Part shown: in pieces, positions 3,573 to 61,740 of the stretch
Position numbering within the stretch: the stretch's first letter is position 1
Layout: every line of letters starts with the position of its first letter
Assembly (NCBI GenBank): GCA_019634625.1
Contig: JAHCBA010000034.1
Span: forward strand, 1-64,000
Origin: Verrucomicrobiia bacterium
GTDB taxonomy: Bacteria; Verrucomicrobiota; Verrucomicrobiia; Limisphaerales; CAIMTB01
Length of the DNA stretch: 64,000 nucleotides
Direction: 5' to 3'
Notes under the pieces: model-generated
What the model saw: only the letters and a program-made list of their open reading frames with translations
What the model was told of the DNA's origin: nothing
The model's database searches: none
Made by a program: the position numbers and the translations under genes

Positions 3573-4373
3573 ATGCGAAGGCGATCTGCCGGTTTCACCC
3601 TGATCGAGCTGTTGGTGGTCATCGCGATCATCGCCGTTCTTGCCTCCCTTCTCCTGCCGGCCTTGTCGCGGGCCAAAGGGCTCGCGCACGGAGCCAAGTG
3701 CCGGAGCAATCTGCGCCAGCTCGGGATCGCCCTGGCGGGGTACACGCTGGATCATGAGCACTACCCGCCCTGGCGCGACTATGCCACGGAACGCGGAGGT
3801 CAGTGGTTGGATGATTATCTGCGACCGTACACGAGTAGCGGGTGGCTCGATCCGCTGTATCGGTGTCCGGGCTATCGCGGCTATGTAAGGGAAGGGATAC
3901 TTATTGCATCAACCCTGCTCGGCACGGTCGAGGCAGTGGGGAGCTACGGCTACAACACGTTCGGCTGGGGACCACCTCTGTCGTTGGGCCTCAACGAGCA
4001 ACTTTACGACGGGAATCCCCGTCCCCTTAAGACGCGCCGAGGTTCAGAAGTCCGGTCTCCCAGCGATATGCTGGCCATAGGCGACGTAGTGGTCACAGTG
4101 CCCCGGGCCGACGGGGTGAGGTCCACCCCTAGTTTTGTCGGCGGCGGGTTTAATCCCCAGGTATTTCACCTAAGCCGCCATAACCCACGCTACGGCGATC
4201 GGTTGGCGGTGGAGCGGGCCCGGCACAACGGTCTCTTCAACGCCGTCTTTTGCGATGGACACGTCCGAGGATTCAAACCCCAGGAGCTCTTTTCCACCAA
4301 GCCAACAGCCGTTAGGCGATGGAATTATGATAACGAAACCCATGAGATCCCGCCATTCATACCTTTGGATTGA
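3573..4373 (+). CDS. Prepilin-like protein, tandem copy 1 (H-X9-DG type)
   Basis: A 266-residue protein starting [20 protein letters not shown]: a class III prepilin leader cut before Phe by a prepilin peptidase, followed by the single hydrophobic helix. After the helix come [20 protein letters not shown] and a globular domain with several aromatic and Gly-rich segments. Near the C-terminus [14 protein letters not shown] gives the H-X9-DG motif of a large planctomycete/verrucomicrobial family related to type II secretion pseudopilins. AAAGGAG stands 7 bp before the ATG. Two further copies follow head to tail at 4428 and 5280. Function is unknown; location in the inner membrane or a pseudopilus is inferred. 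Confidence 0.85.
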
Positions 4374-4427
4374 GCGAAGGGCGCGATGGTTGAGTCTTGT
4401 TCAGACAGCGTCTTAAAGGAGCGTCGA

Positions 4428-5225
4428 ATGCGAAGGCGATCTGCCGGTTTCACCCTGATTGAGCTGTTGGTGGTCATCGCGATCATCGCCGTGCTGGCCT
4501 CCCTTCTCCTGCCGGCCTTGTCGCGGGCCAAAGGCCTCGCGCACGGAGCCAAGTGCCGCAGCAATCTGCGCCAGTTGGGGATCGCACTGGCGGGGTACAC
4601 CCTGGATCACGATCGCTACCCACCCTGGCTCTTCCATGACATGGAACGTGGCGGTCTGCGGCTGGATCATTATTTGCGACCATATACGAGCAGTGGATGG
4701 CTGGATCCGCTGTATCGGTGTCCGGGCTATCGCGGCTATGTGAGCGAAGGGAGACTTCTTGAACCCACCCTCGTGGGCACGACGACCCCAATAGGCAGCT
4801 ACGGGTACAACACGTTCGGCTGGGGGCCGCCTCTGTCCTTGGGCCTCAATGAGAGCGTCTACACTGCGCAGTCCCATCCCCTGAGGACCCGCAGAAGTAC
4901 AGAAGTCAGATCTCCCAGCGATATGCTGGCAATGGGCGACACCGCGATTGCCGCGCCCCGGCCAGACGGGGTGGTCGCATACACTTCCCTATTGGGCGAG
5001 TTTAATCCGCAGGCATTCTACTTGCTCAAGCGGATTCCGTTCCACGGCGAACGGTTGGCTGCGGAGCGGGCGCGTCACACGGGTCTCTTCAACGCCGTCT
5101 TTTGCGATGGACACGTCCGAGGATTCAAACCCCAGGAGCTCTTTTCCACCAAGCCAACAGCCGTTAGGCGATGGAATTATGATAACGAAGCCCATGAGAT
5201 CCCGCCATTCATACCTTTGGATTGA
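4428..5225 (+). CDS. Prepilin-like protein, tandem copy 2
   Basis: A 265-residue paralogue of the preceding gene. The first 60 residues and the last 40 (from the [20 protein letters not shown] motif) are almost identical to copy 1, even at the DNA level; the centre (about residues 90-205) differs much more. AAAGGAG precedes the ATG at 4428. The 54-bp spacer carries the same sequence block (TCTTGTTCAGACAG) as the spacer before copy 3, so each unit was copied together with its leader. Confidence 0.85.
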
Positions 5226-5279
5226 GCGAAAGGCGTGATGCGCAAGTCTTGTTCAGACAGGGCCTTAGAGGGCCGTCGA

Positions 5280-6077
5280 ATGCGAAGGCGATCTGCCGGT
5301 TTCACCCTGATCGAGCTGTTGGTGGTCATCGCGATCATTGCCATTCTTGCCTCTCTTCTGCTGCCGGCCTTGTCGCGGGCCAAGGGCCTCGCGCACGGTG
5401 CCAAGTGTAGGAGCAATCTGCGCCAGCTCGGGATCGCCCTCGCCGGGTACACGCTGGATCATGATCACTACCCGCCCTGGCGCGACTATGACAAGGAACG
5501 CGGCGGTCTGCATCTGGATGATTATCTGCGACCGTACACCAGCAGCGGGTGGCTCGATCCGCTGTATCGGTGTCCGGGGTATCGCGGCCTTGTGAGGGAA
5601 GGACTTCTTCATGAAAGAACCCTTCTGAACACACTGGACCCAGTAGGCAGTTATGGGTATAACACGATTGGTTGGGGGCCGCCTCTGTCACTAGGCCTCA
5701 ACCAGGAACTCTACAGGGCGGATTCCCGTCCCCTTAAGACGCGCCTTACTTCAGAAGTCTGGTCTCCCAGCGATATGCTGGCCATGGGCGACACCCCGAT
5801 TACGGCGCCCCGTGCCGACGGGAAGACGGCGCTGGGATCGACCTTTGGTATGTTTAATCCGCAGTCCTATTTCATGCTCAGGTGGCTTCCTCTCCACGAT
5901 GAACGGCAGGCGGCGGAGCGGGGGCGTCATACGGGTCTTTTTAACGCCGTCTTTTGCGATGGACACGTCAGAGGATTCAAACCCCGGGAGCTCTTTTCGA
6001 CCAAGCCAACGTCCGTGCGGCGATGGAACTATGATAACGAAGCCCATGAGATCGAGATACACGTCCCCGTGGATTGA
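5280..6077 (+). CDS. Prepilin-like protein, tandem copy 3
   Basis: A 265-residue third copy with the same leader ([20 protein letters not shown]), the same central framework ([30 protein letters not shown]) and the same H-X9-DG tail. Its tail has drifted from the shared IPPFIPLD ending to IEIHVPVD. The ribosome binding site is weaker than that of copies 1 and 2 (GAGGG before CCGTCGAATG). It ends close to the start of a TMTC-like membrane gene. Confidence 0.85.
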
Positions 6078-6172
6078 ATGGATGGTACGATAGGGGCGTG
6101 TTGGCTGTCCGCGGCGGGTCTGGCCGCTTGATTGCCGATTGGATACTGGCTTTGAGAAATCGGGAACACGCG

Positions 6173-7677
6173 GTGGCCTCGAAGATACCGTCGCTGGATC
6201 GGGAGGAATGGCGGGACTGGGTGTATCTCGCCCTCGCATTCGTCACCCTCGCGGTCTTTTTTCCCGTGCTTGGGATGGACTTCATCACCCTGGATGATCC
6301 CAGCTACGTGATGATGAACCCTTACGTCAACACCGGGCTCTCGATTGCCAACCTCTCCTGGGCTCTTACAACCCTCCATGCCGATGTCAGCTACTGGCAT
6401 CCCCTGACCTGGTTGTCGCATCAACTGGATTGCGAGGTCTTTGGGCTTCGTTCCGGTGCCCATCATTTTACCAACGTCGTGCTGCACGTTGGCTCAGGGC
6501 TCCTGCTCTTCCGCTTCTTGAGCGAGTCCACGAAGGAATGGCCGCGGAGCGCGCTTGTCGCTGCCTTGTTCTGCCTGCACCCGCTTCATGTCGAGACCGT
6601 GGCCTGGATCGCCGAGCGAAAGGGCGTGCTCAGCGGCCTGTTTTGGATGGCCACTCTGAACGCCTACCTCAGTTGTGCTCGCGCCCCTTCCTTCAGGCGC
6701 TACCTGGTCGTGGTGCTCGCCTTCATCGCGGGACTCATGTCAAAGCCCACGACGGTGGTCCTGCCCACGGTGCTTCTTCTCCTGGACTACTGGCCGTTGG
6801 GACGGTTCACCCAATGGAAGGCCGGAGTGGCTGGCAGCGTTCCGCTGGTACCCCTGTTGGCCGAAAAGATACCCTTGTTGACTCTGAGCCTGCTGCTTGC
6901 CGTGGCGACGTTCGCCGCGCAACGCGAGATCGGCGCGGTGGTGCCGCTGGAGACCCTCCCGCTTGCGGATCGGATGAGCAGCGCCCCGATGGCGTACCTG
7001 GCGTATCTTTGGAAAACCGTCTGGCCGGTGAATCTCTCCGTGATTTACGTCCGTGGCGAGGCCTGGCCGTTGTGGAAGGTGGTTTTGGCCGGGTGCTTTC
7101 TGATCGGGCTGACCTGGTGCTGCTTCCGCTGGCGAGGCCGGCATCCCTATCTTCTGGTTGGATGGTTTTGGTGTCTCATCACCCTGATACCGATGATTGG
7201 AATCGTTCAAGTGGGTTCCCAGTTCATCGCCGACCGCTATACCTATATATCCATCATTGGATTGTTTATCGCGGCGATTTGGCTCGCGGGTGACCTTGCC
7301 GAACGCCGTCCGGTGGTTCATAGGTGCGTGGCCGTCCTGGCCTGCCTGATCCTGATCGCCTCGATAGGGGGCACCCGGCGCCAGCTTCGGTACTGGGAAG
7401 ACAGCGTCACCCTATTCTCTCGCGCCCTGGAGATCGCGCCTGGGAACATCCTGGCCCGCTGCTATCTGGCTGTCGCCTTGACCAACGTGGAGGACTATTC
7501 GGCCGCGGACGAGCATCTGAAGGAAGTGGTCCGAACCAGTCCTAATCACAGTCTGGCCAGGGAGCTCCGTGGCGGCCTGTTGCTGGATCGAGGCCGGGCT
7601 GAGGAGGCCATCGAGTGTTTCAGGGAGGTCCTGGTGCTTAGGTCGAACCATCTGGAGGCGCACTATATGCTTGGCGG
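6173..7677 (+). pseudogene. TMTC-like multispanning membrane protein with TPRs, 3' end lost
   Basis: About 500 residues of a polytopic protein: LDDPSYVMMNPYVNTGLS and YWHPLTWLSHQLDCEVFGL, then AHHFTNVVLHVGSGLLLFRF and LHPLHVETVAWIAERKGVLS, many membrane helices, FIADRYTYISIIGLFIA, and at the C-terminal end tetratricopeptide repeats (ARCYLAVALTNVEDYSAADE). This is the bacterial relative of the DUF1736/TMTC protein O-mannosyltransferase family. The GTG at 6173 gives the cleanest N-terminus; the frame stays open to a TTG at 6074. At about 7677 the homology stops inside a TPR and the DNA switches to a GT2 glycosyltransferase gene in another frame, so the 3' part has been deleted. Confidence 0.75.
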
Positions 7678-7683
7678 TTCTGT

Positions 7684-8010
7684 AACATGGTTGGAAACAA
7701 GTTCTTCAGCCTGGCGCTTGGATTTCTTCTGGGCCAGCCGGTCAAGGACACCCTTTGCGGGACCAAGGCATTGTTCAAGGACGACTATGAGGCCATCGAC
7801 AGGAACCGTTCGTACTTTGGCGATTTCGACCCGTTTGGCGATTTCGACCTCCTCTTCGGCGCCTCCAAGTTGAACCTGCGTATTGTTGACATGCCGGTCC
7901 ACTACCAGGCTCGCAGCTATGGCAGCACAAACATCGCCCGATGGAGGCATGGGTGGTTGCTGCTGAAGATGGTTCTGCATGGGGCCATATTGCTAAGGTT
8001 TACGAGATGA
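7684..8010 (+). pseudogene. GT2 glycosyltransferase, C-terminal fragment
   Basis: The frame reads MVGNKFFSLALGFLLGQPVK, DTLCGTKALF, FGDFDLLFGASKLNLRIVDM and YGSTNIARWRHGWLLLKMVL, which is the C-terminal third of a dolichol-phosphate-mannose-synthase-like GT2 protein. The catalytic GT-A domain is missing; the fragment abuts the truncated TMTC-like gene. Its stop overlaps the start of the FkbM gene (ATGA, 8007-8010), so it was once an operon partner of that gene. Confidence 0.8.
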
Positions 8011-35824: not shown

Positions 35825-35980
35825 TCAGTCCAGTCCTCCAGATGGGGCGAACCGTTCATGCCGATGCCCCGGAGTCTAAGCGGATGCCCACGCCTCAAGC
35901 AATCGCAGGCTGACGCGTCGGGATGCCCACAGACCTTTGGGGCCTCGACACCGGGTGGGCCCGGAATAGTCTGCATCGCA

Positions 35981-36245
35981 TGCTCGCGAACCGGCTCGAC
36001 CCACCCCCGCCGCGCCGCCGCATCTCCCGCCCCACGCTCCTCCTGGTCATGAAGCCGTCTGGCAGCCCAAGCCTGTTCCCTACTGGCGCCCGGATTCGGA
36101 TCGCGAAGTCCCCGACGACGAAACGCGCCGCAACGTCGAAGCGGCCCGACTGCCCTTCGCCGAGATCATGACCGAACTCTTTGGCATCCCGATCTGCGAT
36201 GGGGAATTCGGCGGACTGCTGAATGGCACCATGATCGAGGTGGAG
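35981..36245 (+). pseudogene. Broken copy of the anchored protein gene at 44282
   Basis: The sequence from about 35938 matches that from about 44237: the same leader (GGTGGGCCCGGAATAGTCT), the same start MLANRLDPPPPRRRISRPTL, then a 331-bp deletion that shifts the frame, then the block ending FGGLLNGTMIEVE in another frame. It ends by fusion to the promoter-region repeat at 36265. The stretch 35825-35937 holds no gene. Confidence 0.88.
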
Positions 36246-36264
36246 GCAGCGGGACCATGGATGC

Positions 36265-36345
36265 GAGGAGCACCTTCACGCGCCCTCTATATCGCCCCAC
36301 GCGAAGGCAGTTGTCAGGGATATGTAAAGATTCGCCCAGCCGATC
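36265..36345 (-). repeat. Copy of the leader of the ankyrin gene
   Basis: About 80 bp equal to 40455-40535, which carry the first codons and the upstream region of the ankyrin protein gene: CACGCGCCCTCTATATCGCC, and GGCAGTTGTCAGGGATATGT followed by AAAGATTCG. On the minus strand CTTTACATATCCCTGACAAC may be a promoter. Here it lies just downstream of the ATPase gene and drives nothing intact. Confidence 0.7.
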
Positions 36346-37617
36346 TCAGGCATCGATCGCGCTCGCATCGCAGACTTCGAATCGCACGCTTGCGTGCCGG
36401 GCGCTCAGGGAACATCGAGACCATTTGGCTTGAAGTTGGTGCAGTACCTGCGCCCGTTCCGCGGCGGTCAGGCGCCTCCACTTGATCTCGGCCACCAGTA
36501 GCCGCCGATCATCCTCCGGGTCCTGCGCGACCAGGTCCAATTCCACGTCCCTCTCCCAGAATCTCTGGGCTCCGGCAATGCGTCCCCGGCACCAGTCCTC
36601 GAATACCGTCGCGGCGTGATCGCGGACAAGTTTCCGCCTCTCGGGCTTGGTGTAGCCGTGCCACCGGGTCCGGTGTGGCGAGTAAACCCGGAACCAAAAC
36701 CGCAATGCCGGGTCGGCGATGCGGTACAGGGTTCGTTTCGACGTTCGCACGCTCTGCCCGAACGGCAGTTCCCGCTTTAGCAGCGATGCATCGAGCAGTT
36801 GCGTGAGCAGGCGGGACAGGTTGGTTTGCGCGGTTCCCAGCCGTGCGGCGATCTCCGAGGGACGCTCGGCTCCGCGCCCGACCGCCTCCAGCACCGAATT
36901 GGCGTTAAGGCCGCTGACGCCCTCGTCGCGCAGAAGCCGTTGGGGCTCCTGTTCCATGTAGGGCGCAAAGTCGAAGTACAGCGTATGGGCAAGCGTCACG
37001 GGATCCTGCCCCGGCTCCAGGAATTCCCAGTACCTGGGAATGCCGCCCAGGCAGGAGAACATCTCGAACGAATCCATCTCGCGGCGGCGGAGATCACAGG
37101 CGTCGCAGAAGGACGCGTAGTCCATCGGCTGGAGCTGAAGGAGCTTCCGCGCGCGGCCGTACAGGGGGGCGGACCGATGCAGGAAGAGGTCGTGCATCAT
37201 GTGGGTGCTCGATCCCGCCAGGATCATGAGGCAGCCCGCCGGCAGCGAGTGATCGAGCCACCGCTGCAACTGGCTTGGCAACGACGGGTCCACGGCCGCG
37301 AGGTATGGGAACTCGTCCAGGCACAGCGTCCACGGGCGCGCTTGCAGCGTTAGAGTTTCGAGAAGTTCCGGCCAGGTCCGAGGAACGAGCTGGGTTGCGA
37401 GCCGCGGTTGGAGGTCGGCGAACACCTGTTGGATCTGCTGGTCCCGCTGCGCTTCGATGGCCTGGCTGTACAGCCCCCCTCGACCGTCCAGCCAGTGCCG
37501 CAGCAGCCGCGTCTTGCCGATGCGTCGTCGCCCGTAAACCACCAGCAGGCCCCCGTGTTTCGCCGCCAGATCCAGCTCGCGAAGCTCCGCCGCCCGATCG
37601 ACAAACGCCATGCGCAT
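36346..37617 (-). CDS. AAA family ATPase with DUF234-type C-terminus
   Basis: A 423-residue protein (ATG 37617; an upstream ATG at 37656 is possible). N-terminus FVDRAAELRELDLAAKHGGL then LVVYGRRRIGKTRLLRHWLD with Walker A GRRRIGKT; Walker B TLCLDEFPYLAAVDPSLPSQ; sensor region LMILAGSSTHMMHDLF. A winged helix follows (RPSEIAARLGTAQTNLSRLL), then the nuclease-like DUF234 domain with FWERDVELDLVAQDPE and LLVAEIKWRRLT (the D-EIK pattern of PD-(D/E)XK folds). Members are common in archaea and in mobile regions; the function is unknown. A C-terminal fragment of a second copy lies at 40548-40664. Confidence 0.85.
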   Translation of the reverse strand: MRMAFVDRAAELRELDLAAKHGGLLVVYGRRRIGKTRLLRHWLDGRGGLYSQAIEAQRDQQIQQVFADLQPRLATQLVPRTWPELLETLTLQARPWTLCLDEFPYLAAVDPSLPSQLQRWLDHSLPAGCLMILAGSSTHMMHDLFLHRSAPLYGRARKLLQLQPMDYASFCDACDLRRREMDSFEMFSCLGGIPRYWEFLEPGQDPVTLAHTLYFDFAPYMEQEPQRLLRDEGVSGLNANSVLEAVGRGAERPSEIAARLGTAQTNLSRLLTQLLDASLLKRELPFGQSVRTSKRTLYRIADPALRFWFRVYSPHRTRWHGYTKPERRKLVRDHAATVFEDWCRGRIAGAQRFWERDVELDLVAQDPEDDRRLLVAEIKWRRLTAAERAQVLHQLQAKWSRCSLSARHASVRFEVCDASAIDA

Positions 37618-37817: not shown

Positions 37818-40469
37818 TTACTCGGGCTTCGCCGGCACCTCGATCCGGTCGTCGTCCAGGAGCCAGAACCGCTTCGCCGCGTCGTCGTTCTGCACGTCGA
37901 GGGTCCATGCCTGTCCGGTGCCCCCGCGGGTGACGCGGACGCGGGTAAGATCCGAGGAGGCTCGGAGACGCTCGGAATCCCGAAGCACCTGCACGAGATA
38001 ACAGGAATGGATTTCGCCAGGCGGTGGACCAAAACGAACAAAGCCAGTGCCAATTTCCCCTGCGCCAACTCGAATTGCCAGCCCTTCGTTTGAGATAGGC
38101 AGATGGGCCGGATGAAGCACGAGATCGACGGACTCTCCGTGGAGGCTTAAGACGACCGTGCGTACGGTGCAGCGGAGAAGGGACTTGCGAGCCGCATCGG
38201 GGAGGCCCGGCCAACCGGCTGCCGCAGGGCGATCGAGGAACTGCGGGATCTCGATCGTATCGCCCCACTCGAGGGCGAGGTTCCATGCGCAGTCGGCGCG
38301 ATCGAACCAGTCCGGGGCAACAGGGACGACGAACTCGTGCGAACCGTCCTGGGCCCAGCGATGGACTCGGAGTTGATCCAGGGCAGGCCAACCTCGGATC
38401 GAATCCACGCCGCCGACGCTGCTGGAAAACAACAGGGTCAGCATATCGCCCAGGGAAGGTGCAGGCTGGTCCTCCGAGGGCCGCCGCCGGAACTGCACCA
38501 GGTCGTCTCCTCGCCGGAAGGATACGTAGGGACGCCGCGCCACATCGTCGCGGGCCCCGGCCTTCCTCAGCAATTTCTCCACGGCCTCGAGGGCGGCGAG
38601 TGGGGGGGCGGACTGGGGGCCCGGACGCCGCCAGACCCGTTGGCTCAATCCGCCACCCCCCAGCCTGCGAATTGGGGGCTTGGAATGCGATTGTCTCAGC
38701 AAGGATTGAACCAGGCTGAGGGGTGTCTCGTCGTCCCGGTTCAAACGATTCGGGTCCGCCCCCGCGTCGAGGAGCATCCGCACCCGATTCGTCTCGCCCT
38801 GCTGCCAGACATGTTCGACAGCCAAGTGCAGGGCCGTCCTGCCGTTCGCGTTGGTCGCGCCAAGATCGGAGCCGGCTGCCAGCAATTGCTCCAAGGCTCG
38901 AGGCGAAGTGCGGGAAACCGTGGACAACCAGAGAGGGCTTCCGTCGGCTCCGACCGCGTTCGGAGACGCGCCGGCGCGTATCAAGGGCGCGATCAACGCG
39001 TCGTGATGGGCCTTCGCCAGCACTTCGACCAGGAGCCCGTTGAGGTTCTCGGGGCCGAGTTGCTCGGAAGGCGTGAGCCGCAGGAGTTCCTCGAACCAAT
39101 CGGGTTCCAGGGACCGGTTCGCCCCGATCAGCCGGGTCAGATCGCCCACATCGAGCGTCGCCCCCAGGCGGATCAACGTCCTGGCGGCGTCCCGTTGGTC
39201 GGCCTTCAGCGCTGCCGTCAGAGGCTTCTGATCGCCGTCGGGTCCGCCACTCCGTACGATATGGGATAGGTCCGCCCCGGCCTGGGCGAGACGCTCGATC
39301 AGGTTGGTGTTTCCGCGGTCGATGGCGGCGAGGAGGGAGGCGGCGCCGGGTTCGTTCCGTGGATCCGCGCCGTGCGACAGGAGCGTATCGAGGACTGCGG
39401 GCACCTCGTTTCGGATGGCCATGGAGAGAGGCGTGAAACCACGTCCGTCGGCGCGGTGCGGATCCGCACCGGCGTTCAGCAGAGCCTCGACGATCGCCTT
39501 GTGGCCTTCACTCGCCGCGGCGTGAAGCGCCGTGAAGCCCGTCGGCTGGGATGGGGAAGTCCGATGCACGTCGGCGCCCCAATCCAGGAGGGCCCGCACC
39601 ACTCCCAGACGTCCTTCGGCGGCAGCGGCGACCAGGGGCAATCGGCCCTCCGAGTCGGGGACGTTCAGGCGATCGGGACTTTGGTCGAGCATGGCCCGCA
39701 ATCGGGCGATCTCGCGTTGCTCGACGTCGAGCGGCGTGGGGGTGACGGGGATCGGCGTCGCGGCGGTGTCGGCGAGGGCCTTCAGCGTCTCCAGGTGGGA
39801 CCGCTGTGCGTTCAACAGGCTCTGGACACGTTCGTCGAGTTGGGTTTCGACGTGCTTGAGCGCGCGCGAATGGAAGACGTGCTCGGGATGATTCTGTCCG
39901 AATTGCCCACTCACCCCGGCCAAACGACGGGAGATCGACATCCGCTCGCTCTCGAGTTCCGCGAGAAGCCGGTCGGGGAACCACTGCTGGATCAGGATCA
40001 ACGCCTCGGGACTCGTCGTGGGCAGGGCATCGAACCGTTCCAACCGACGTTGCAGCAGCCGCAGTTCGCGCTCCGTGGCGGCGAGGTCCGGGATCGGCGT
40101 CGTGGGCGTGTCGGCTCGTTCCGCAACCGAATGCCCGAGCCCGGCAAGGTTCTCTTCGCTCAGCCGGCCCAGGTCGGACTCGCCAGGGAAATCGCGGAGG
40201 AGCCGCTGGTACTGGGCCACGGCGTCGTTGGTGCGACCGAGCTTGCGGTAGCACTCGCCCAGACGGAACACGGCGGTGGCGGCGAGCGCCCGCTGGGCGT
40301 CCACCTGGGCGACCACCGCCTCGTAATCGCGGATCGCCGACACCAGGTCCCGGCGTCCTTCCTCGGCCAGGAGTGCGGATTGAAACAGGCGGTCGATGGA
40401 TTCCGCGGCCCGGACGGCGGGCGAGGCGCAGAGCGACAGCGAAACAATGGCAACGAGGAGCGCTTTCAC
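37818..40469 (-). CDS. Large exported ankyrin/TPR protein
   Basis: An 883-residue protein with GTG start at 40469 and signal peptide VKALLVAIVSLSLCASPAVR. Residues 25-105 form a TPR region (LVSAIRDYEAVVAQVDAQRA, ECYRKLGRTNDAVAQYQRLL). A charged coiled-coil part follows (about 110-230). About ten ankyrin repeats run from 240 to 560, for example GFTALHAAASEGHKAIVEAL, LLNAGADPHRADGRGFTPLS and LDAGADPNRLNRDDETPLSL. The last 250 residues form an unknown domain, ending in RFWLLDDDRIEVPAKPE. It probably acts as a periplasmic scaffold. Its leader is duplicated at 36265. Confidence 0.85.
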   Translation of the reverse strand: MKALLVAIVSLSLCASPAVRAAESIDRLFQSALLAEEGRRDLVSAIRDYEAVVAQVDAQRALAATAVFRLGECYRKLGRTNDAVAQYQRLLRDFPGESDLGRLSEENLAGLGHSVAERADTPTTPIPDLAATERELRLLQRRLERFDALPTTSPEALILIQQWFPDRLLAELESERMSISRRLAGVSGQFGQNHPEHVFHSRALKHVETQLDERVQSLLNAQRSHLETLKALADTAATPIPVTPTPLDVEQREIARLRAMLDQSPDRLNVPDSEGRLPLVAAAAEGRLGVVRALLDWGADVHRTSPSQPTGFTALHAAASEGHKAIVEALLNAGADPHRADGRGFTPLSMAIRNEVPAVLDTLLSHGADPRNEPGAASLLAAIDRGNTNLIERLAQAGADLSHIVRSGGPDGDQKPLTAALKADQRDAARTLIRLGATLDVGDLTRLIGANRSLEPDWFEELLRLTPSEQLGPENLNGLLVEVLAKAHHDALIAPLIRAGASPNAVGADGSPLWLSTVSRTSPRALEQLLAAGSDLGATNANGRTALHLAVEHVWQQGETNRVRMLLDAGADPNRLNRDDETPLSLVQSLLRQSHSKPPIRRLGGGGLSQRVWRRPGPQSAPPLAALEAVEKLLRKAGARDDVARRPYVSFRRGDDLVQFRRRPSEDQPAPSLGDMLTLLFSSSVGGVDSIRGWPALDQLRVHRWAQDGSHEFVVPVAPDWFDRADCAWNLALEWGDTIEIPQFLDRPAAAGWPGLPDAARKSLLRCTVRTVVLSLHGESVDLVLHPAHLPISNEGLAIRVGAGEIGTGFVRFGPPPGEIHSCYLVQVLRDSERLRASSDLTRVRVTRGGTGQAWTLDVQNDDAAKRFWLLDDDRIEVPAKPE

Positions 40470-40535
40470 GCGCCCTCTTTATCGCCCCGCGCGACGGCAG
40501 TTGTCAGGGATTTGTAAAGATTCGCGGATTCGGGC
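40455..40535 (-). promoter_or_regulatory. Leader and possible promoter of the ankyrin gene
   Basis: On the minus strand the upstream DNA reads CTTTACAAATCCCTGACAAC then TGCCGTC, 35-60 bp before the GTG. The TTTACA and CTGACAACTG blocks are the only parts that look like promoter elements, and they are conserved in the displaced copy at 36265-36345. The sigma factor is unknown. Confidence 0.4.
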
Positions 40536-40547
40536 TCGGGAACCGAT

Positions 40548-40664
40548 CGGGCTCGCGTCGCAAACGTCGAAGCGCTCCCCGCGGTGCCGGGCGCTCAGGG
40601 AACATCGGGACCATTGGGCTTCGAGTTGGCGAAGCGCCTGCGCCCATTGGGCTTCGATGGCCTG
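40548..40664 (-). pseudogene. Fragment of a second AAA/DUF234 ATPase
   Basis: The frame reads QAIEAQWAQALRQLEAQWSR then CSLSARHRGERFDVCDASP. It matches two separate parts of the ATPase at 36346-37617: QAIEAQ after the P-loop, and LQAKWSRCSLSARHASVRFE near the C-terminus. More than 300 residues between them are deleted. The relation to the ankyrin leader (directly next to it) is the same as at 36265-36460. Confidence 0.8.
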
Positions 40665-40985: not shown

Positions 40986-41038
40986 TGGCCGGCTTGCTGT
41001 GATTTCTGCCGCACATGTTCCCACCCCTCAGGGAACCG
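40935..41038. repeat. 100-bp duplicated segment, copy 2
   Basis: Matches 30600-30703, including a palindrome GGCAATTCGATTGCA in place of the candidate operator and the identical block GTGATTTCTGCCGCACATGT / TCCCACCCCTCAGGGAACCG. Its right end overlaps the stop of the PEP/pyruvate-binding protein gene. No gene lies downstream of the palindrome on the minus strand; only fragments do. Confidence 0.75.
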
Positions 41039-44000
41039 TTCGGAATGTCCCGTCCAGGCCCCAAAGGAAGTGCCAGGCGTCGCCATCGATGCTTCGAAGG
41101 ACGACGATCCCGCGCACGTTGTCCGCGGCGAGTTCGGCGAGGAGATCCGGATCAACGTCCGGTTCCAGCCAGGGATCGAAGAGGAAATCCTCCGAGAAGT
41201 TGTGATGCCCCGGACGATAGGTCTGGGAGAACCCGCCCCGCAGCCGGATCGGCCGCGTGGTGAAGCCTTCGAGTGTGGTCTCGACCCATGCCAGCAGCGG
41301 CGCGGTGTATCCGGCGGTGGGGCCCTTGGGGTGTGGCGGCCAGTAGAACGTGGTCGTGACGCGGCGCCCCCCCCACGCCATGTGCCGTTCCTGCCTCAGA
41401 CTTTCCGAATCGACCCTCCGGATCGGGACCAGCGAGACGGTCTCCTCCTGCACCGGCTCCATCGTGATGGTGCCGTCCGGTCCGAAGTTCGGCCGGTTCC
41501 GTGCCGTGGCGTAGCGCGCGCCGAGTTCCAGGCGCAGATCGTCCAGAATGGCGATCGGCCCGGCCTCCGGCAGGGCGAACCGATCGAGGTTCACCCGCAG
41601 AAAGCGCGTCTCGTCCCCGGAGGTCCAGGCATCCTCCGTCCGGTTCCCCATGCGTTCGAACCGATGGCCCGGAAGATTCGTGATGGAACCGGAGAGACGC
41701 TGCTCCTCGGTGCCTTCGATCCACATCCCGTCGATGTGGCCGAACAGGGTCTCGTCGGGATGTCCCGCCCCGATCCGGGTATGGCGCACCGGGAGGGTCC
41801 AGTACGACTTCAGGCGATGCAGGGAATACACGTTGGCAAACTCGCCCTGAAGCACGCCCCAACGATTGGTCGTGTTCAGCAGCCAGTCGGTGGGCGCCAC
41901 GCCGGACGGCGGCAGGGGAATCGGGCGGATCTGCTTCACGCTCAGTACGCCGTCCGGGGCGATCTTCTTGTATTCGAAATCGAGGATCCAGCGGGAGCGC
42001 CCGGGTGTCCCCGCTTCCCACCGCTGGCTTGCCGCATTGAGCAACCCGTACAGCGCCTCGTATTCCGACGGCCAGCCGAGGACCGTTCCACCCAGGGGCA
42101 CCAGGCTGGACCGGCTTTCCACCATCAGCGTCGGATCCAGGAACGATGCCCATTGCGACACCTTCACCACTTCGGGCACCGCGGTGTTGTCGGGGTTGCT
42201 GACCGAGACGGCGCCAGCCTGGGTCACCAGGGTCGCCTCGATGATCCTCTGCCCGCCCGATCGCTGGATCGACAGTGTGCCGACCCCGTTCGCCAGTTCG
42301 ATCTCGTCCGGAGTCGAGTAATGCACCAGCACCGCCATCCCGACGTCCGCCTCGTTCACGCCGTGGCGCAGGCGTTCGAGCACGGCATTGTCGTTGTAGA
42401 AGCTCGCAAAGACCCGGCGCAGGGCGCGGAACACGCCGCGTTCGTTGTTCTCCGCGGGATTGCAGTGACTCGGTCCCTGCGTGTCCCCGTCGAGGTCGTC
42501 CGCCAGGCACCCGCTGTAACTGTCGTAGAGCCCCGCCCCCGTGAAGTGCTCGCTGTCCTCGACGTTGGTGGAACTGCGGAAGCGGATGCGGCGATGGGTG
42601 TCGAAGCCGGCGTCCTGAAGGATCCCGAGGATGGCCTCCTTCTGCCCGTCGCTGAAGTCGGTGCGGTTGCGAAACAGTTCCCGGAGCTGTGCCAGGGTGG
42701 TCTGCAAGGCCGCCATGTCGGGCGGCCATTGCAGTCCGTCCAGGGCGTCCTCCACCGTCTCGCGAAGGGTTCGCCCGTCCGGCCGGACCTGTCCCAGGTA
42801 CCCGTCCCAAAGGTCGAAGGTGAACGCCATGACCGGCTCGGGGGAATGATCCGGGATGGCCTGTCGCAGGATGCCGAGATTGGCGGCCTTCCCCCCCACG
42901 AAGCGGATGTCGGCCGGGCCCAATCCATCCACGCCGAGGTGGAGCGCCCCGGCGGACTCGATGGGCGCCACGTCGAGTTGGGGCGGGTCCTTGAGAGCCA
43001 GCAGTTCCCCGCGCATCCCGGGATCCAGCGGACTGCCCAGGACCGTCACACTGACCTCGCATCCCAGGAATTGCTCGATGGCCCGCACCAGCACATCGCG
43101 CCCGTCCCACGACCTCAATTCCGTCTCCGCCTCGTCCCCTTCCAGGTGGACGAAAGGTATCCCCGACGCCCGGGACAGCAGGGCGACATGCGAGTTGGGC
43201 GTGGCCGGGCTCAACGACACGATCCCCGCCATCGGCGGCACCTCGGCGGGCACCGCGTCGGTCAGGAGAACGTCACGCGGCCCGATCCGCCCCTGCCGGT
43301 AGGCGTCGGCAATCTCGACGCCCGGCACGAACACCAGCCGCCCAAGGGTCCAGCCCGGCGCGTAGCAGTCGTCCCCGCTCATCCAACGTCCTGCGGACCC
43401 GATGGGAATCCCCTCGCTCTCGAACCAGTCCCGGTTCGCACGCGCCACATCGGCCTGCTCGAAGGTCGGCAGATAAAACGCGCCCATGCCGGAAGGAGCC
43501 ACCACCATCGCGCGCACGGTGTGGAACCACTCCGCCACCCGCTCCCTCGGGTAGGGATCATGCCCGACCAACTGGATGGCGATCTCATTCAAGCCGGGCG
43601 TCGGTGCGAACAGCACGGCGCCCAAGACCGCCCGCTGTCCCGCAATCCGAAGCGTGACCGCATCGAACTCGCTCCGGGTCATGTCCGTGAACCCCGGCAG
43701 CCGCGCCACCGCGAAGTCGTAGTGGAACAGGTACCGGCCGCTGTCCTGGAAGTACACCCGGTGGGGATCGTCGAGCAGGATGGCGAACTTGATCCATCGC
43801 GGTTCCGGCCTCAACCGGGGCACGGGTTCGGACTGGAACGGATCGTTCCCTCCGCCGGACACCACGTTCTTCCAGTCATCGCCTTCCCCGCGCGGCCGGG
43901 CCAGTGCCCGGTAGAAGGCCGCGGGCGCGGCGCCGAAGGTCAGATCCGCGATGTCCTCGAACGGCCCGTGCACCCGCAACCATTCCGTCCAGGATCCCAG

Positions 44001-44189
44001 GTCCGGGGCCGCTTCGACCACCACCACATCCCCGGCCGCGGCCTCCGCCGACAATCGCGGCACCCCCGAGGGGTCGCGGTCGATGGAAAGCCGCGTTGCC
44101 GCACCTGCGGAAGGCGGGATGGACGCACCCGTTCCCAGGACGAGGGCCAGCAGGAATGGAACAACAGCGCGAAGGGCAGGACGTCGCAT
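41028..44189 (-). CDS. Exported PEP/pyruvate-binding (PPDK-like) protein
   Basis: A 1053-residue protein with signal peptide MRRPALRAVVPFLLALVLGT. About residues 30-110 are a beta module common in verrucomicrobial secreted proteins. Then an unknown domain, then a swivelling phospho-histidine-like domain (GIVSLSPATPNSHVALLSRA), then the PPDK_N ATP-grasp (DIRFVGGKAANLGILRQAIP, IRFRSSTNVEDSEHFTGAGL, YDSYSGCLADD, EYKKIAPDGVLSVKQIRPIP). These are the two catalytic domains of PEP synthase and PPDK, in swapped order and without the PEP-binding barrel. The last 250 residues are unknown. An ATP-dependent enzyme outside the cytoplasm is odd; the His in TPNSHVALL is the likely phosphorylated residue. 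Substrate unknown. Confidence 0.8.
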   Translation of the reverse strand: MRRPALRAVVPFLLALVLGTGASIPPSAGAATRLSIDRDPSGVPRLSAEAAAGDVVVVEAAPDLGSWTEWLRVHGPFEDIADLTFGAAPAAFYRALARPRGEGDDWKNVVSGGGNDPFQSEPVPRLRPEPRWIKFAILLDDPHRVYFQDSGRYLFHYDFAVARLPGFTDMTRSEFDAVTLRIAGQRAVLGAVLFAPTPGLNEIAIQLVGHDPYPRERVAEWFHTVRAMVVAPSGMGAFYLPTFEQADVARANRDWFESEGIPIGSAGRWMSGDDCYAPGWTLGRLVFVPGVEIADAYRQGRIGPRDVLLTDAVPAEVPPMAGIVSLSPATPNSHVALLSRASGIPFVHLEGDEAETELRSWDGRDVLVRAIEQFLGCEVSVTVLGSPLDPGMRGELLALKDPPQLDVAPIESAGALHLGVDGLGPADIRFVGGKAANLGILRQAIPDHSPEPVMAFTFDLWDGYLGQVRPDGRTLRETVEDALDGLQWPPDMAALQTTLAQLRELFRNRTDFSDGQKEAILGILQDAGFDTHRRIRFRSSTNVEDSEHFTGAGLYDSYSGCLADDLDGDTQGPSHCNPAENNERGVFRALRRVFASFYNDNAVLERLRHGVNEADVGMAVLVHYSTPDEIELANGVGTLSIQRSGGQRIIEATLVTQAGAVSVSNPDNTAVPEVVKVSQWASFLDPTLMVESRSSLVPLGGTVLGWPSEYEALYGLLNAASQRWEAGTPGRSRWILDFEYKKIAPDGVLSVKQIRPIPLPPSGVAPTDWLLNTTNRWGVLQGEFANVYSLHRLKSYWTLPVRHTRIGAGHPDETLFGHIDGMWIEGTEEQRLSGSITNLPGHRFERMGNRTEDAWTSGDETRFLRVNLDRFALPEAGPIAILDDLRLELGARYATARNRPNFGPDGTITMEPVQEETVSLVPIRRVDSESLRQERHMAWGGRRVTTTFYWPPHPKGPTAGYTAPLLAWVETTLEGFTTRPIRLRGGFSQTYRPGHHNFSEDFLFDPWLEPDVDPDLLAELAADNVRGIVVLRSIDGDAWHFLWGLDGTFRTVP

Positions 44190-44281
44190 GATCGACGAAG
44201 GAGGCACGCACCGGCCCAACCGTCAATTGTGGGGAGCTTCGAGGGCTCGACACCCGGTGGGCCCGGAATAGTCTCCATCGC

Positions 44282-45316
44282 ATGCTCGCGAACCGGCTCG
44301 ACCCATCCCCGCCGTGCCGCCGCATCTCCCGCCCCACGCTCCTCCTGGTCATCGCCCTGTCTCTGGCGCTGAACTTCTTCCTGGGCGCCCGACTGATGCG
44401 CGGAGGGTCTTCTCCGCCTCAGCCCCCCCTGGCCGACGCCAGCCGCGCTCCCAACCAGACCCCCGATTCTTCGACCCCGGTCCCCTTCTCCTTCACGCGC
44501 CAGCCCTTGGAACGGGCCGTCCCCAACGCGGGTGGCGGCCAACCGCCTCCATTCCTTTGGGCGGACATCGAATCCGACCACTATCCCACCTACATCGCCA
44601 ACCTGCGGGCCATCGGCTGCCCCGAAACGTTGATCCAGGACCTGGTGGCCGCCGATCTCGCCCAGGTCCAGCGCCGACGTTTTGAAGCCGTCTGGCAGCC
44701 CAAACCTGTTCCCTACTGGCGCCCGGATTCGGATCGCGAAGTCCCCGACGACGAAACGCGCCGCAACGTCGAAGCGGCCCGACTGCCCTTCGCCGAGATC
44801 ATGACCGAACTCTTTGACATCCCGATCTGCGATCGGGAATTCGGCGGACTGCTGAATGGCACCATGATCGAGGTGGAGGAGAATCTCATGTTCCTGGAGC
44901 CACACCGCCGGGAGGAGGTCCTCGACCGATTGAGTCTCTCCGGACACCTCGCCCGCGAATACGTCATCGCCGCACCCGATGCCAGTCCGGACGACTTCAG
45001 CGATGTCCTTCCCGAGCGGCACCGTCAGTTGACCACCTGGCTCACCCCGGAGGAGGCCGCGGAGTACGAGCTTCGTCACGGGGTCAACGCGATGGGGCTC
45101 CGGTTCCGGTTGGGCGGCTTCGAGCCGACTCCGGACGAGTTTGTCGCCCTGCTCCGGGCTTGGGAGGCCGCCCCTCCCCTCCAGGCCGGTCCCTCCCGGG
45201 GTTCCCCCACCGAACAGGCCGCTCGAATGGCCCAATGGGTGTCCGGCGTCCTGGGCCCATCCAGGGCCGCCGAGTTCGAACGTCGCCAATCTCCCACAGG
45301 CTTCCGAGCACCATGA
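44282..45316 (+). CDS. Membrane-anchored protein of unknown family, first of two paralogues
   Basis: A 344-residue protein. Positively charged start MLANRLDPSPPCRRISRPTL, one hydrophobic anchor (LLLVIALSLALNFFLGARLM), a proline-rich linker, then a helical domain opening with LWADIESDHYPTYIANLRAI and GCPETLIQDLVAADLAQVQR. It is weakly similar to the following gene (WAAIESDDPATFLARLQATG, CPPSIQRDLV). I know this architecture from verrucomicrobial genomes, where such genes often follow sigma-factor genes, but no function. The start of the next gene overlaps its stop (ATGA). A deleted copy is at 35981. Confidence 0.75.
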   Translation: MLANRLDPSPPCRRISRPTLLLVIALSLALNFFLGARLMRGGSSPPQPPLADASRAPNQTPDSSTPVPFSFTRQPLERAVPNAGGGQPPPFLWADIESDHYPTYIANLRAIGCPETLIQDLVAADLAQVQRRRFEAVWQPKPVPYWRPDSDREVPDDETRRNVEAARLPFAEIMTELFDIPICDREFGGLLNGTMIEVEENLMFLEPHRREEVLDRLSLSGHLAREYVIAAPDASPDDFSDVLPERHRQLTTWLTPEEAAEYELRHGVNAMGLRFRLGGFEPTPDEFVALLRAWEAAPPLQAGPSRGSPTEQAARMAQWVSGVLGPSRAAEFERRQSPTGFRAP

Positions 45317-48697: not shown

Positions 48698-48740
48698 CTA
48701 AGAGACACAACCTCCTCAGGCAATGTCAGTCCACCGATTC

Positions 48741-48831
48741 GCCACTCGCCATTCGCCATTCGCCATTCGCCATTCGCCATTCGCCATTCGCCATTCGCCA
48801 TTCGCCATTCGCCACTCGCCACTCGCCACTC
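48741..48831. repeat. Heptanucleotide array, 13 units of GCCATTC/GCCACTC
   Basis: Exactly 13 direct 7-bp units without spacers. The first and the last three read GCCACTC, the nine inside GCCATTC, so variation is at one position and at the edges. The array ends 14 bp before the stop of the next gene (48845). With the hairpin at 48651 it fills the 329-bp gap 48516-48844. Confidence 0.92.
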
Positions 48832-48844
48832 GCCCCCTTCCCCC

Positions 48845-61246: not shown

Positions 61247-61383
61247 CCGGACCCTGCCCACGTCGGGACTCGTCCTCGAACCCGCAGGCACACCCTTTCG
61301 AGCGCCGCCCTGGGGCGCCGCCCCGATGGGTTCGATCTTGCCCGGCCCTCCCATTCCGCGTGCGAACTCCATCTCAGGCCTCA

Positions 61384-61740
61384 CGCCTCAGGCCTCAGGC
61401 CTCAGGTCTCAGGCCTCAGGCCTCAGGTCTCAGGCCTCAGGTCTCAGGCCTCAGGCCTCAGGTCTCAGGTCTCAGGTCTCAGGCCTCAGGCCTCAGGTCT
61501 CAGGTCTCAGGCCTCAGGCCTCAGGCCTCAGGTCTCAGGCCTCAGGCCTCAGGTCTCAGGCCTCAGGTCTCAGGCCTCAGGCCTCAGGTCTCAGGTCTCA
61601 GGTCTCAGGCCTCAGGCCTCAGGCCTCAGGCCTCAGGTCTCAGGTCTCAGGCCTCAGGCCTCAGGCCTCAGGTCTCAGGTCTCCGGCCTCAGGCCTCAGG
61701 CCTCAGGCCTCAGGTTTCAGGCTTCAGCCTTCAGCCTCCA
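61384..61740. repeat. Heptanucleotide array, about 48 units of CTCAGGC/CTCAGGT
   Basis: An unbroken run of 7-bp units CTCAGGC or CTCAGGT fills the space between the ABC permease (stop 61246) and aconitase (start 61831). The only variable position is the last base, C or T, in an irregular order; the last few units decay (TTCAGGC, TTCAGCC, TCCAGCC). The 7-bp unit contains no stop, so all frames are open, but no gene is meant. The remaining parts of the gap (61247-61383 and 61741-61830) hold nothing I recognise. Confidence 0.92.

Follow-up and report, generated by a model that had tools for sequence, protein, structure and literature searches.

Two unnamed domains in an apparently exported dikinase-like protein of a Verrucomicrobiia bacterium

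The window analysed here is the whole stretch of 64,000 nucleotides at positions 1 to 64,000 of contig JAHCBA010000034.1, from a Verrucomicrobiia bacterium. On its minus strand, at 41028-44189, lies a real gene whose product seems to represent an exported and as yet uncharacterised line within the dikinase superfamily, in which a phosphohistidine domain and an ATP-grasp domain are accompanied by two unnamed domains, called here the N-domain and the C-domain. The explanation that we favour, with a probability of about 0.55, is that the protein is an exported ATP-dependent phosphotransferase of the dikinase type, in which these two domains make up the acceptor site. It is proposed from sequence and structural model, namely from an N terminus of Sec type, from His and ATP-grasp domains that are intact, and from the paired extra domains.

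Dikinases of the PPDK/RPH type are not known to have been characterised from anywhere but the cytoplasm or the plastid, and no description of an exported PPDK-like protein was found in the titles and abstract openings of one open-access library, among the matches listed. If active, the protein would transfer phosphate beyond the cytoplasm, as an enzyme of a kind not yet characterised: intact catalytic residues together with export signals, in Verrucomicrobiota, Planctomycetota and Myxococcota, would imply that phosphate is transferred there from ATP by way of a histidine. An exported dikinase would also raise the question of its source of ATP, and would point to a novel phosphorylated molecule outside.

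The gene and its domains

The features of the gene are the following, with the evidence for each in brackets.

41028..44189, minus strand: whole gene, dikinase-like exported protein of 1053 amino acids (open reading frame and translation, PPDK_N match, paralogue)
44100..44189, minus strand: signal peptide, about residues 1-30 (by eye)
43890..44099, minus strand: Ig-like stretch, residues 31-100 (beta strands in the model; our own profile)
43386..43880, minus strand: N-domain, residues 104-268, with K134, Q148 and H156 (alignment, model)
43026..43385, minus strand: swivelling phosphohistidine domain, residues 269-388, with H334 (fold match to 2hi6, weak profile alignment, residue counts)
43188..43190, minus strand: codon of H334, the predicted phosphoryl carrier (alignments, residue counts)
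41904..42953, minus strand: PPDK-type ATP-grasp, residues 413-762, with K434, R538, S557, E739, Q753 and R755 (structure matches)
42462..42509, minus strand: inserted acidic loop from C561 to C576, a cysteine pair (alignment)
41031..41888, minus strand: C-domain, residues 768-1053, beta-rich (model; separate protein in one clade)

The frame opens with an ATG at 44189 and ends with the stop codon at 41028-41030; with the TTG at 44219 as start instead, the protein would be 10 residues longer. A plus-strand open reading frame of 1210 amino acids overlaps the gene in antisense, but the minus-strand frame is not a chance one, because it is matched by a paralogue in the same genome, at 61% identity, and by relatives in other genomes that align to the same frame across most of its length. 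The genome also encodes two further PPDK_N proteins, in open frames of 901 and 975 amino acids, which score higher; given these and the paralogue, the product is unlikely to be a housekeeping phosphoenolpyruvate (PEP) synthase or PPDK.

A full-length AlphaFold2 model built with 61 sequences has a mean confidence (pLDDT) of 90.0 and a pTM of 0.85. Three parts of it lie beyond what the preliminary description of this DNA had covered: the Ig-like stretch (31-100), the N-domain (104-268) and the C-domain (768-1053). The Ig-like stretch belongs to a type that is frequent among exported proteins of Verrucomicrobiota. Our own hidden Markov model (HMM) of it matches 44 of 80 fused rows, some loci being counted twice, and did not find it in the planctomycete rows.

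The catalytic core

We place the protein in the PPDK/RPH dikinase superfamily, since the ATP-grasp domain, the swivelling His domain and the ATP-contact residues are all present. Pfam PPDK_N matches residues 430-670 with 52 bits (cut-off 27) and an E-value of 8.7e-14. In the model, the ATP-grasp superposes with the VIA program on rifampin phosphotransferase (RPH, 5hv1; Z 27.1, root-mean-square deviation (rmsd) 2.7, 288 residues aligned) and on PEP synthase (2ols; Z 27.1, rmsd 2.8, 291 aligned). A profile of 62 relatives, compared with the PDB at E <= 1, returns two matches, both of them PEP synthases (2ols, E 3e-9; 9dae, E 5.7e-5). The mobile His domain is fainter in sequence: Pfam PEP-utilizers reaches residues 321-347 below its cut-off (E 0.075), and appears with E-values of 0.0004-0.08 in five of eight relatives scanned, being absent at E <= 0.1 in the other three. 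In the model, residues 272-385 match 2hi6, which we take to be a swivel-fold protein (Z 9.6, rmsd 2.7, 103 aligned).

The preliminary description had read the gene as an exported protein with a His domain placed before a PPDK-type ATP-grasp and no PEP barrel, and these parts of it hold. The two motifs that it quoted, GGKAANLG and FRSSTNVED, are there; H334 precedes the ATP-grasp residues 434-755; and the search for a PEP barrel gave no Pfam model at E <= 1 in the 1053 amino acids, so that the PEP/pyruvate barrel of PEP synthase and PPDK proper was not found. The equivalog models of these enzymes are far from being reached, with 30.8 bits against a cut-off of 739.75 for PEP synthase (TIGR01418), and 24.6 bits against 999 for rifampin phosphotransferase (NF041857).

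The preliminary description also stands by the test that it set for itself, a loss of the catalytic ATP-grasp residues. Seven sites are unchanged in 90-95 rows each, gap rows being set aside: H334 in 94/94, K434 in 92/92, R538 and S557 in 95/95, E739 in 91/91, and Q753 and R755 in 90/90. The copy in the window itself (L001) is counted here, as are a few rows that are nearly identical, with 93 distinct among the 95 His rows, and 98 distinct among the 100 ATP-grasp segments, which come from 95 loci.

The numbering of known enzymes can be carried over to some of these sites. The VIA alignment with PPDK (1dik) pairs residue 414 with 2 and 762 with 344; by these offsets, K434 is Lys22 and R755 is Arg337, provided that no gap lies between the end of the range and the residue, and both PPDK positions are sites of mutant PDB entries (1jde, 2dik). 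S557 sits 19 residues past R538, the same spacing as from Arg117 to Thr136 in RPH. K434 and R538 thus appear, from offsets and spacing, as counterparts of the nucleotide phosphate contacts of RPH, and E739 is the probable counterpart of its Glu297. RPH is reported to need Lys22, Arg117 and Thr136, Glu297 being dispensable (PMC4844700).

The two flanking domains

Neither flanking domain has a recurrent Pfam match at E <= 1, the best single members reaching E 0.0053 for the N-domain and E 0.045 for the C-domain, both to unrelated families, nor has either a convincing sequence relative in the PDB (best E 0.18 and 1.8, respectively). Modelled alone, the N-domain has a pLDDT of 96.1. In structure searches of the PDB its best Foldseek E-value is 0.19, such an absence being no proof of a new fold, and the top row that VIA gives for it is at noise level (2nmm; Z 4.2, rmsd 4.5, 87 aligned). 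With a pLDDT of 96 and no match in PDB searches, the N-domain is a clear target for structure work. AttH-like, sliding-clamp and kelch-like candidates came from weak Foldseek rows of the whole model, and were set aside. Three residues of the N-domain are kept nearly everywhere: K134 in 88/88 rows, Q148 in 86/88 and H156 in 87/88.

The two domains travel together. At E <= 0.001, the N-domain profile hits 30 of 146 genomes in the order, and the C-domain profile hits 29 of these same 30; the sole genome with N and without C, G525, has only a fragment near a contig end. The short forms contain a divergent N-domain-like stretch that both profiles miss and that is visible by eye only.

In eight loci, two of which are identical (L075 and L105), the C-domain is a protein of its own, with its own signal peptide by eye. 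In a tree of the C-domain, from which the duplicates L007, L090, L091 and L093-L096 were left out, as they were from the residue counts, the separate copies fall into a single branch; it has support 98/74 and implies one change, and none of 500 shuffles is as low. Two of the eight loci, L097 (2803-5474) and L098 (2-2100), in two genomes of the same genus as the window, carry adjacent genes for an N-domain and a C-domain without any His or ATP-grasp domain. The stop and start of the two genes overlap as ATGA in both, the N-domains retain K134, Q148 and H156, and both genomes also carry a full-length copy. This suggests that the N/C pair binds something in its own right, and that the core works on whatever the pair holds.

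Export signals and cysteine pairs

The N terminus, MRRPALRAVVPFLLALVLG, reads by eye as a clean signal peptide. One simple rule recognises signal-peptide-like N termini in 60 of the 70 relatives whose 5' end is present, versus 172 of 435 other long open reading frames of the same loci. Both Sorangium copies have lipobox-like N termini. A dockerin-like D.D.D motif occurs within the last 120 residues in 9 of 80 loci, all of Planctomycetota; among eight relatives scanned, Pfam reports a dockerin in one protein only, at E 0.088. Tat export was considered as well, but Sec is preferred, because a twin arginine (RR) precedes the hydrophobic core in only 13 of 70 chosen N termini.

Cysteines were followed in alignment A2, whose 62 rows are the window, L002 and 60 loci, L055 being left out. 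C561 and C576 are both present in 62/62 rows of A2, and in 88/88 rows with a letter, gap rows set aside. The acidic loop between them (window 42462-42509) was not seen by eye in the shorter relatives L005 and L006; by its look, it is a possible candidate for metal binding. Among columns with at least eight cysteines, three further pairs co-occur, with Fisher p-values that ignore relatedness: C275/C377 (both in 26/62, p 9.5e-9), C778/C923 (18/62, p 7.2e-13) and C574/C814 (11/62, p 3.4e-5). Judged from the alignment, the cysteine pairs behave in a disulfide-like manner.

Distribution

An even draw over the phylum gives a match in 5 of 387 genomes, the window's own included, and within the order a match is found in 34 of 146 genomes, including four (G406, G457, G521, G526) where a short divergent form is all that matches. 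When genome contigs were scanned, at least 552 relatives were confirmed, of which the best 80 were kept; these belong to Verrucomicrobiota, Planctomycetota (mostly Phycisphaerae and Sedimentisphaerales), Myxococcota (including Sorangium and Polyangium) and a few others. Nineteen of these 80 loci were passed over because they were partial, split or masked, or lacked a usable start. Alignment A3 is A2 without L002, and A4 and A5 used 49 and 50 of 61 listed domain segments. The shorter relatives L005 and L006 lack the C-domain but have the other three, namely N-domain, His domain and ATP-grasp.

Weighing the explanations

If the protein is an exported dikinase, its ATP-grasp domain would bind MgATP outside the cytoplasm and phosphorylate H334; the His domain would then swing over to a second site, which the N-domain forms and where the C-domain helps in holding the target, and the phosphate would be passed to the acceptor, AMP and phosphate being released. 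The acceptor is probably a component of the envelope or of the extracellular space, be it a protein, a glycan or a lipid-linked molecule, rather than pyruvate. A wider picture, which we offer tentatively and with the odds against it, is that of a bacterial dikinase family outside the cytoplasm, in which a new N-/C-domain acceptor pair serves to mark extracellular or envelope polymers or proteins with phosphate, and of which some genomes keep the pair alone, as a substrate or decoy that acts in trans.

Several observations weigh against an exported dikinase, or against parts of its proposed mechanism. The signal-peptide rule is crude, and the control frames, 172/435 of which pass it, include membrane and secreted proteins; the cysteine p-values overstate, because relatives share descent. 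H334 was set on the His segment of 2ols by a stretch that scores 4.7 bits alone, which is weak, and the conservation of E739 says little, because its probable counterpart in RPH is dispensable. The neighbours share no theme, whether by clustering of 790 open reading frames from 87 loci or by Pfam on 70 neighbouring proteins (68 of 100 listed and two longer ones), where the commonest family has 4 of the 70 members, among the 25 of 131 families listed. The core-less pairs speak against the N-domain as a mere acceptor site for its own chain: because they retain K134, Q148 and H156, these residues would serve more than the His phosphate of the same chain. Finally, periplasmic ATP is expected to be scarce. 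The preliminary description went further and did not expect ATP outside the cytoplasm at all, which is too absolute: ATP is reported in the periplasm and outer membrane vesicles of E. coli, by a review that describes the route across the inner membrane as obscure (PMC7432876), and outside the cells in many bacterial cultures (PMC3882102).

The presence of ATP outside would also suit an exported scavenger of nucleotides, with water as acceptor, that turns extracellular or periplasmic ATP into AMP and phosphate for the uptake of phosphate or purines. No special acceptor would then be necessary, and RPH mutants in which the second half reaction is blocked are reported to retain ATP pyrophosphatase activity (PMC4844700). 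However, the conserved N- and C-domains would seem superfluous, simpler phosphatases do the same job, and recurrent neighbours include no phosphate or purine genes among the matches listed. We regard such a scavenger as unlikely, though it is the strongest of the rivals.

Slightly below it comes a pseudo-enzyme, a surface protein for binding or sensing in which the fold is kept to bind a nucleotide or another ligand. The core-less pairs lend it some credit, since their existence in two genomes implies a role for the flanking domains without the core; yet every catalytic position examined is unchanged, and a pseudo-enzyme seems improbable to us. The same chemistry could also run with another donor, such as pyrophosphate, polyphosphate or a phosphorylated metabolite, or in reverse, making ATP. 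Against this, K434 and R538, the putative nucleotide phosphate contacts, are unchanged, and we give it perhaps one chance in ten.

A true bacterial counterpart of glucan water dikinase (GWD), phosphorylating a storage or extracellular alpha-glucan, is very improbable. It would share the order of His domain, then ATP-grasp, and this is a large exported protein with extra domains; but neither paralogue matches GWD1_pHisD, the scanned proteins have no carbohydrate-binding Pfam domain, and Streptomyces relatives without a signal peptide have an ATP-grasp gene on one side and an MFS transporter on the other. A misread N terminus, on a protein that works in the cytoplasm, is least credible of all: the signal peptide does rest on eye and a simple rule, which 10/70 relatives fail and many control frames pass, but the lipobox-like Sorangium N termini, the dockerin-like tails, the separate C-domain proteins with signal peptides of their own, and the cysteine pairs all point the other way.

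Neighbouring genes and other features of the window

Downstream of the dikinase-like gene, at 37818-40469 on the minus strand, lies a gene for a protein with an exported-looking N terminus, a tetratricopeptide (TPR) stretch and ankyrin repeats; ankyrin-like proteins form a cluster in L028, L042 and L069 as well. In L066, a CotH-kinase and lamin-tail protein (4192-7707) is encoded 87 bp upstream of an exported dikinase copy, and sulfatases and FG-GAP proteins occur near a few loci; all of these look like background.

The window also contains duplicated segments. The region at 36.0 kb repeats that at 44.2-44.9 kb (35932-36458 and 44234-44879) in 119 nucleotides (93%) and 197 nucleotides (98%), and a segment of 212 nucleotides (81%) is shared between 36.2 kb and 40.4 kb (40437-40648). 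The open reading frame at 36168 opens with a stretch that resembles an internal portion of the gene at 44282-45316. Two tandem arrays of heptamers are present, CTCAGGC x 52.4 (61373-61738) and ATTCGCC x 14 (48737-48834).

Comparison with known systems

With RPH (5hv1), a cytoplasmic enzyme, the protein shares the ATP-grasp fold, the catalytic residues and the swivelling histidine. The arrangement differs: in RPH the ATP-grasp is N-terminal and the His lies in the C-terminal region (PMC4844700), whereas here a signal peptide is followed by N-domain, His domain, ATP-grasp and C-domain. PEP synthase and PPDK likewise have ATP-grasp and His domains, with Lys22 and Arg337 having counterparts here, but their domain order is the reverse, and the barrel is missing from our protein.

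In GWD the His domain precedes the ATP-grasp, and the same order is found in the protein of 41028-44189; the GWD histidine is reported to be essential (PMC12892837). The flanking domains here are others. A search with GWD1_pHisD (PF22973) at E <= 10 reported two places at chance level, neither of them the window gene or its paralogue. The preliminary description had suggested a GWD-like phosphorylation of a polymer during export, and a search for carbohydrate-binding domains in homologues. No carbohydrate- or starch-binding Pfam domain was found in the window protein (E <= 1), in eight relatives (E <= 0.1) or in the N- and C-domain alignments (E <= 1), and with PF22973 equally silent, the suggestion is not supported so far. 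Identity with GWD is thus not supported, and GWD serves as an analogy of domain order only.

The HpeHI/PpsAB enzymes, which act on phenolic compounds (PMC12167813), show that such dikinases can be split into two proteins. In our model HpeI (9goj) matches the ATP-grasp with Z 21.1 (rmsd 6.1, 288 aligned); the separate part is there the ATP-grasp, and here the C-domain. VadK (Rv1127c) is another PPDK-derived kinase without a PEP domain and is reported to autophosphorylate on a histidine, but its ATP-binding domain comes first, and its reported partners are methylcitrate-cycle enzymes (PMC13400623). The PPDK-like phaseolotoxin protein PhtS may be a further relative.

Two Streptomyces plasmid proteins labelled as PEP/pyruvate-binding, WP_142270066.1 and WP_331760287.1, share the His-then-ATP-grasp order, the TPLSH motif and, by eye, an N-domain-like stretch that our own HMM does not detect. 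They differ in having no signal peptide by eye and no match to the C-domain. Their genes stand in rows made of an ATP-grasp gene, the His-first dikinase-like gene and an MFS transporter (L107, 4514-9341; L108, 4481-9161), an arrangement reminiscent, by analogy, of small-molecule biosynthesis. With such cytoplasmic cousins, the acceptor may therefore differ from branch to branch, and need not be a polymer.

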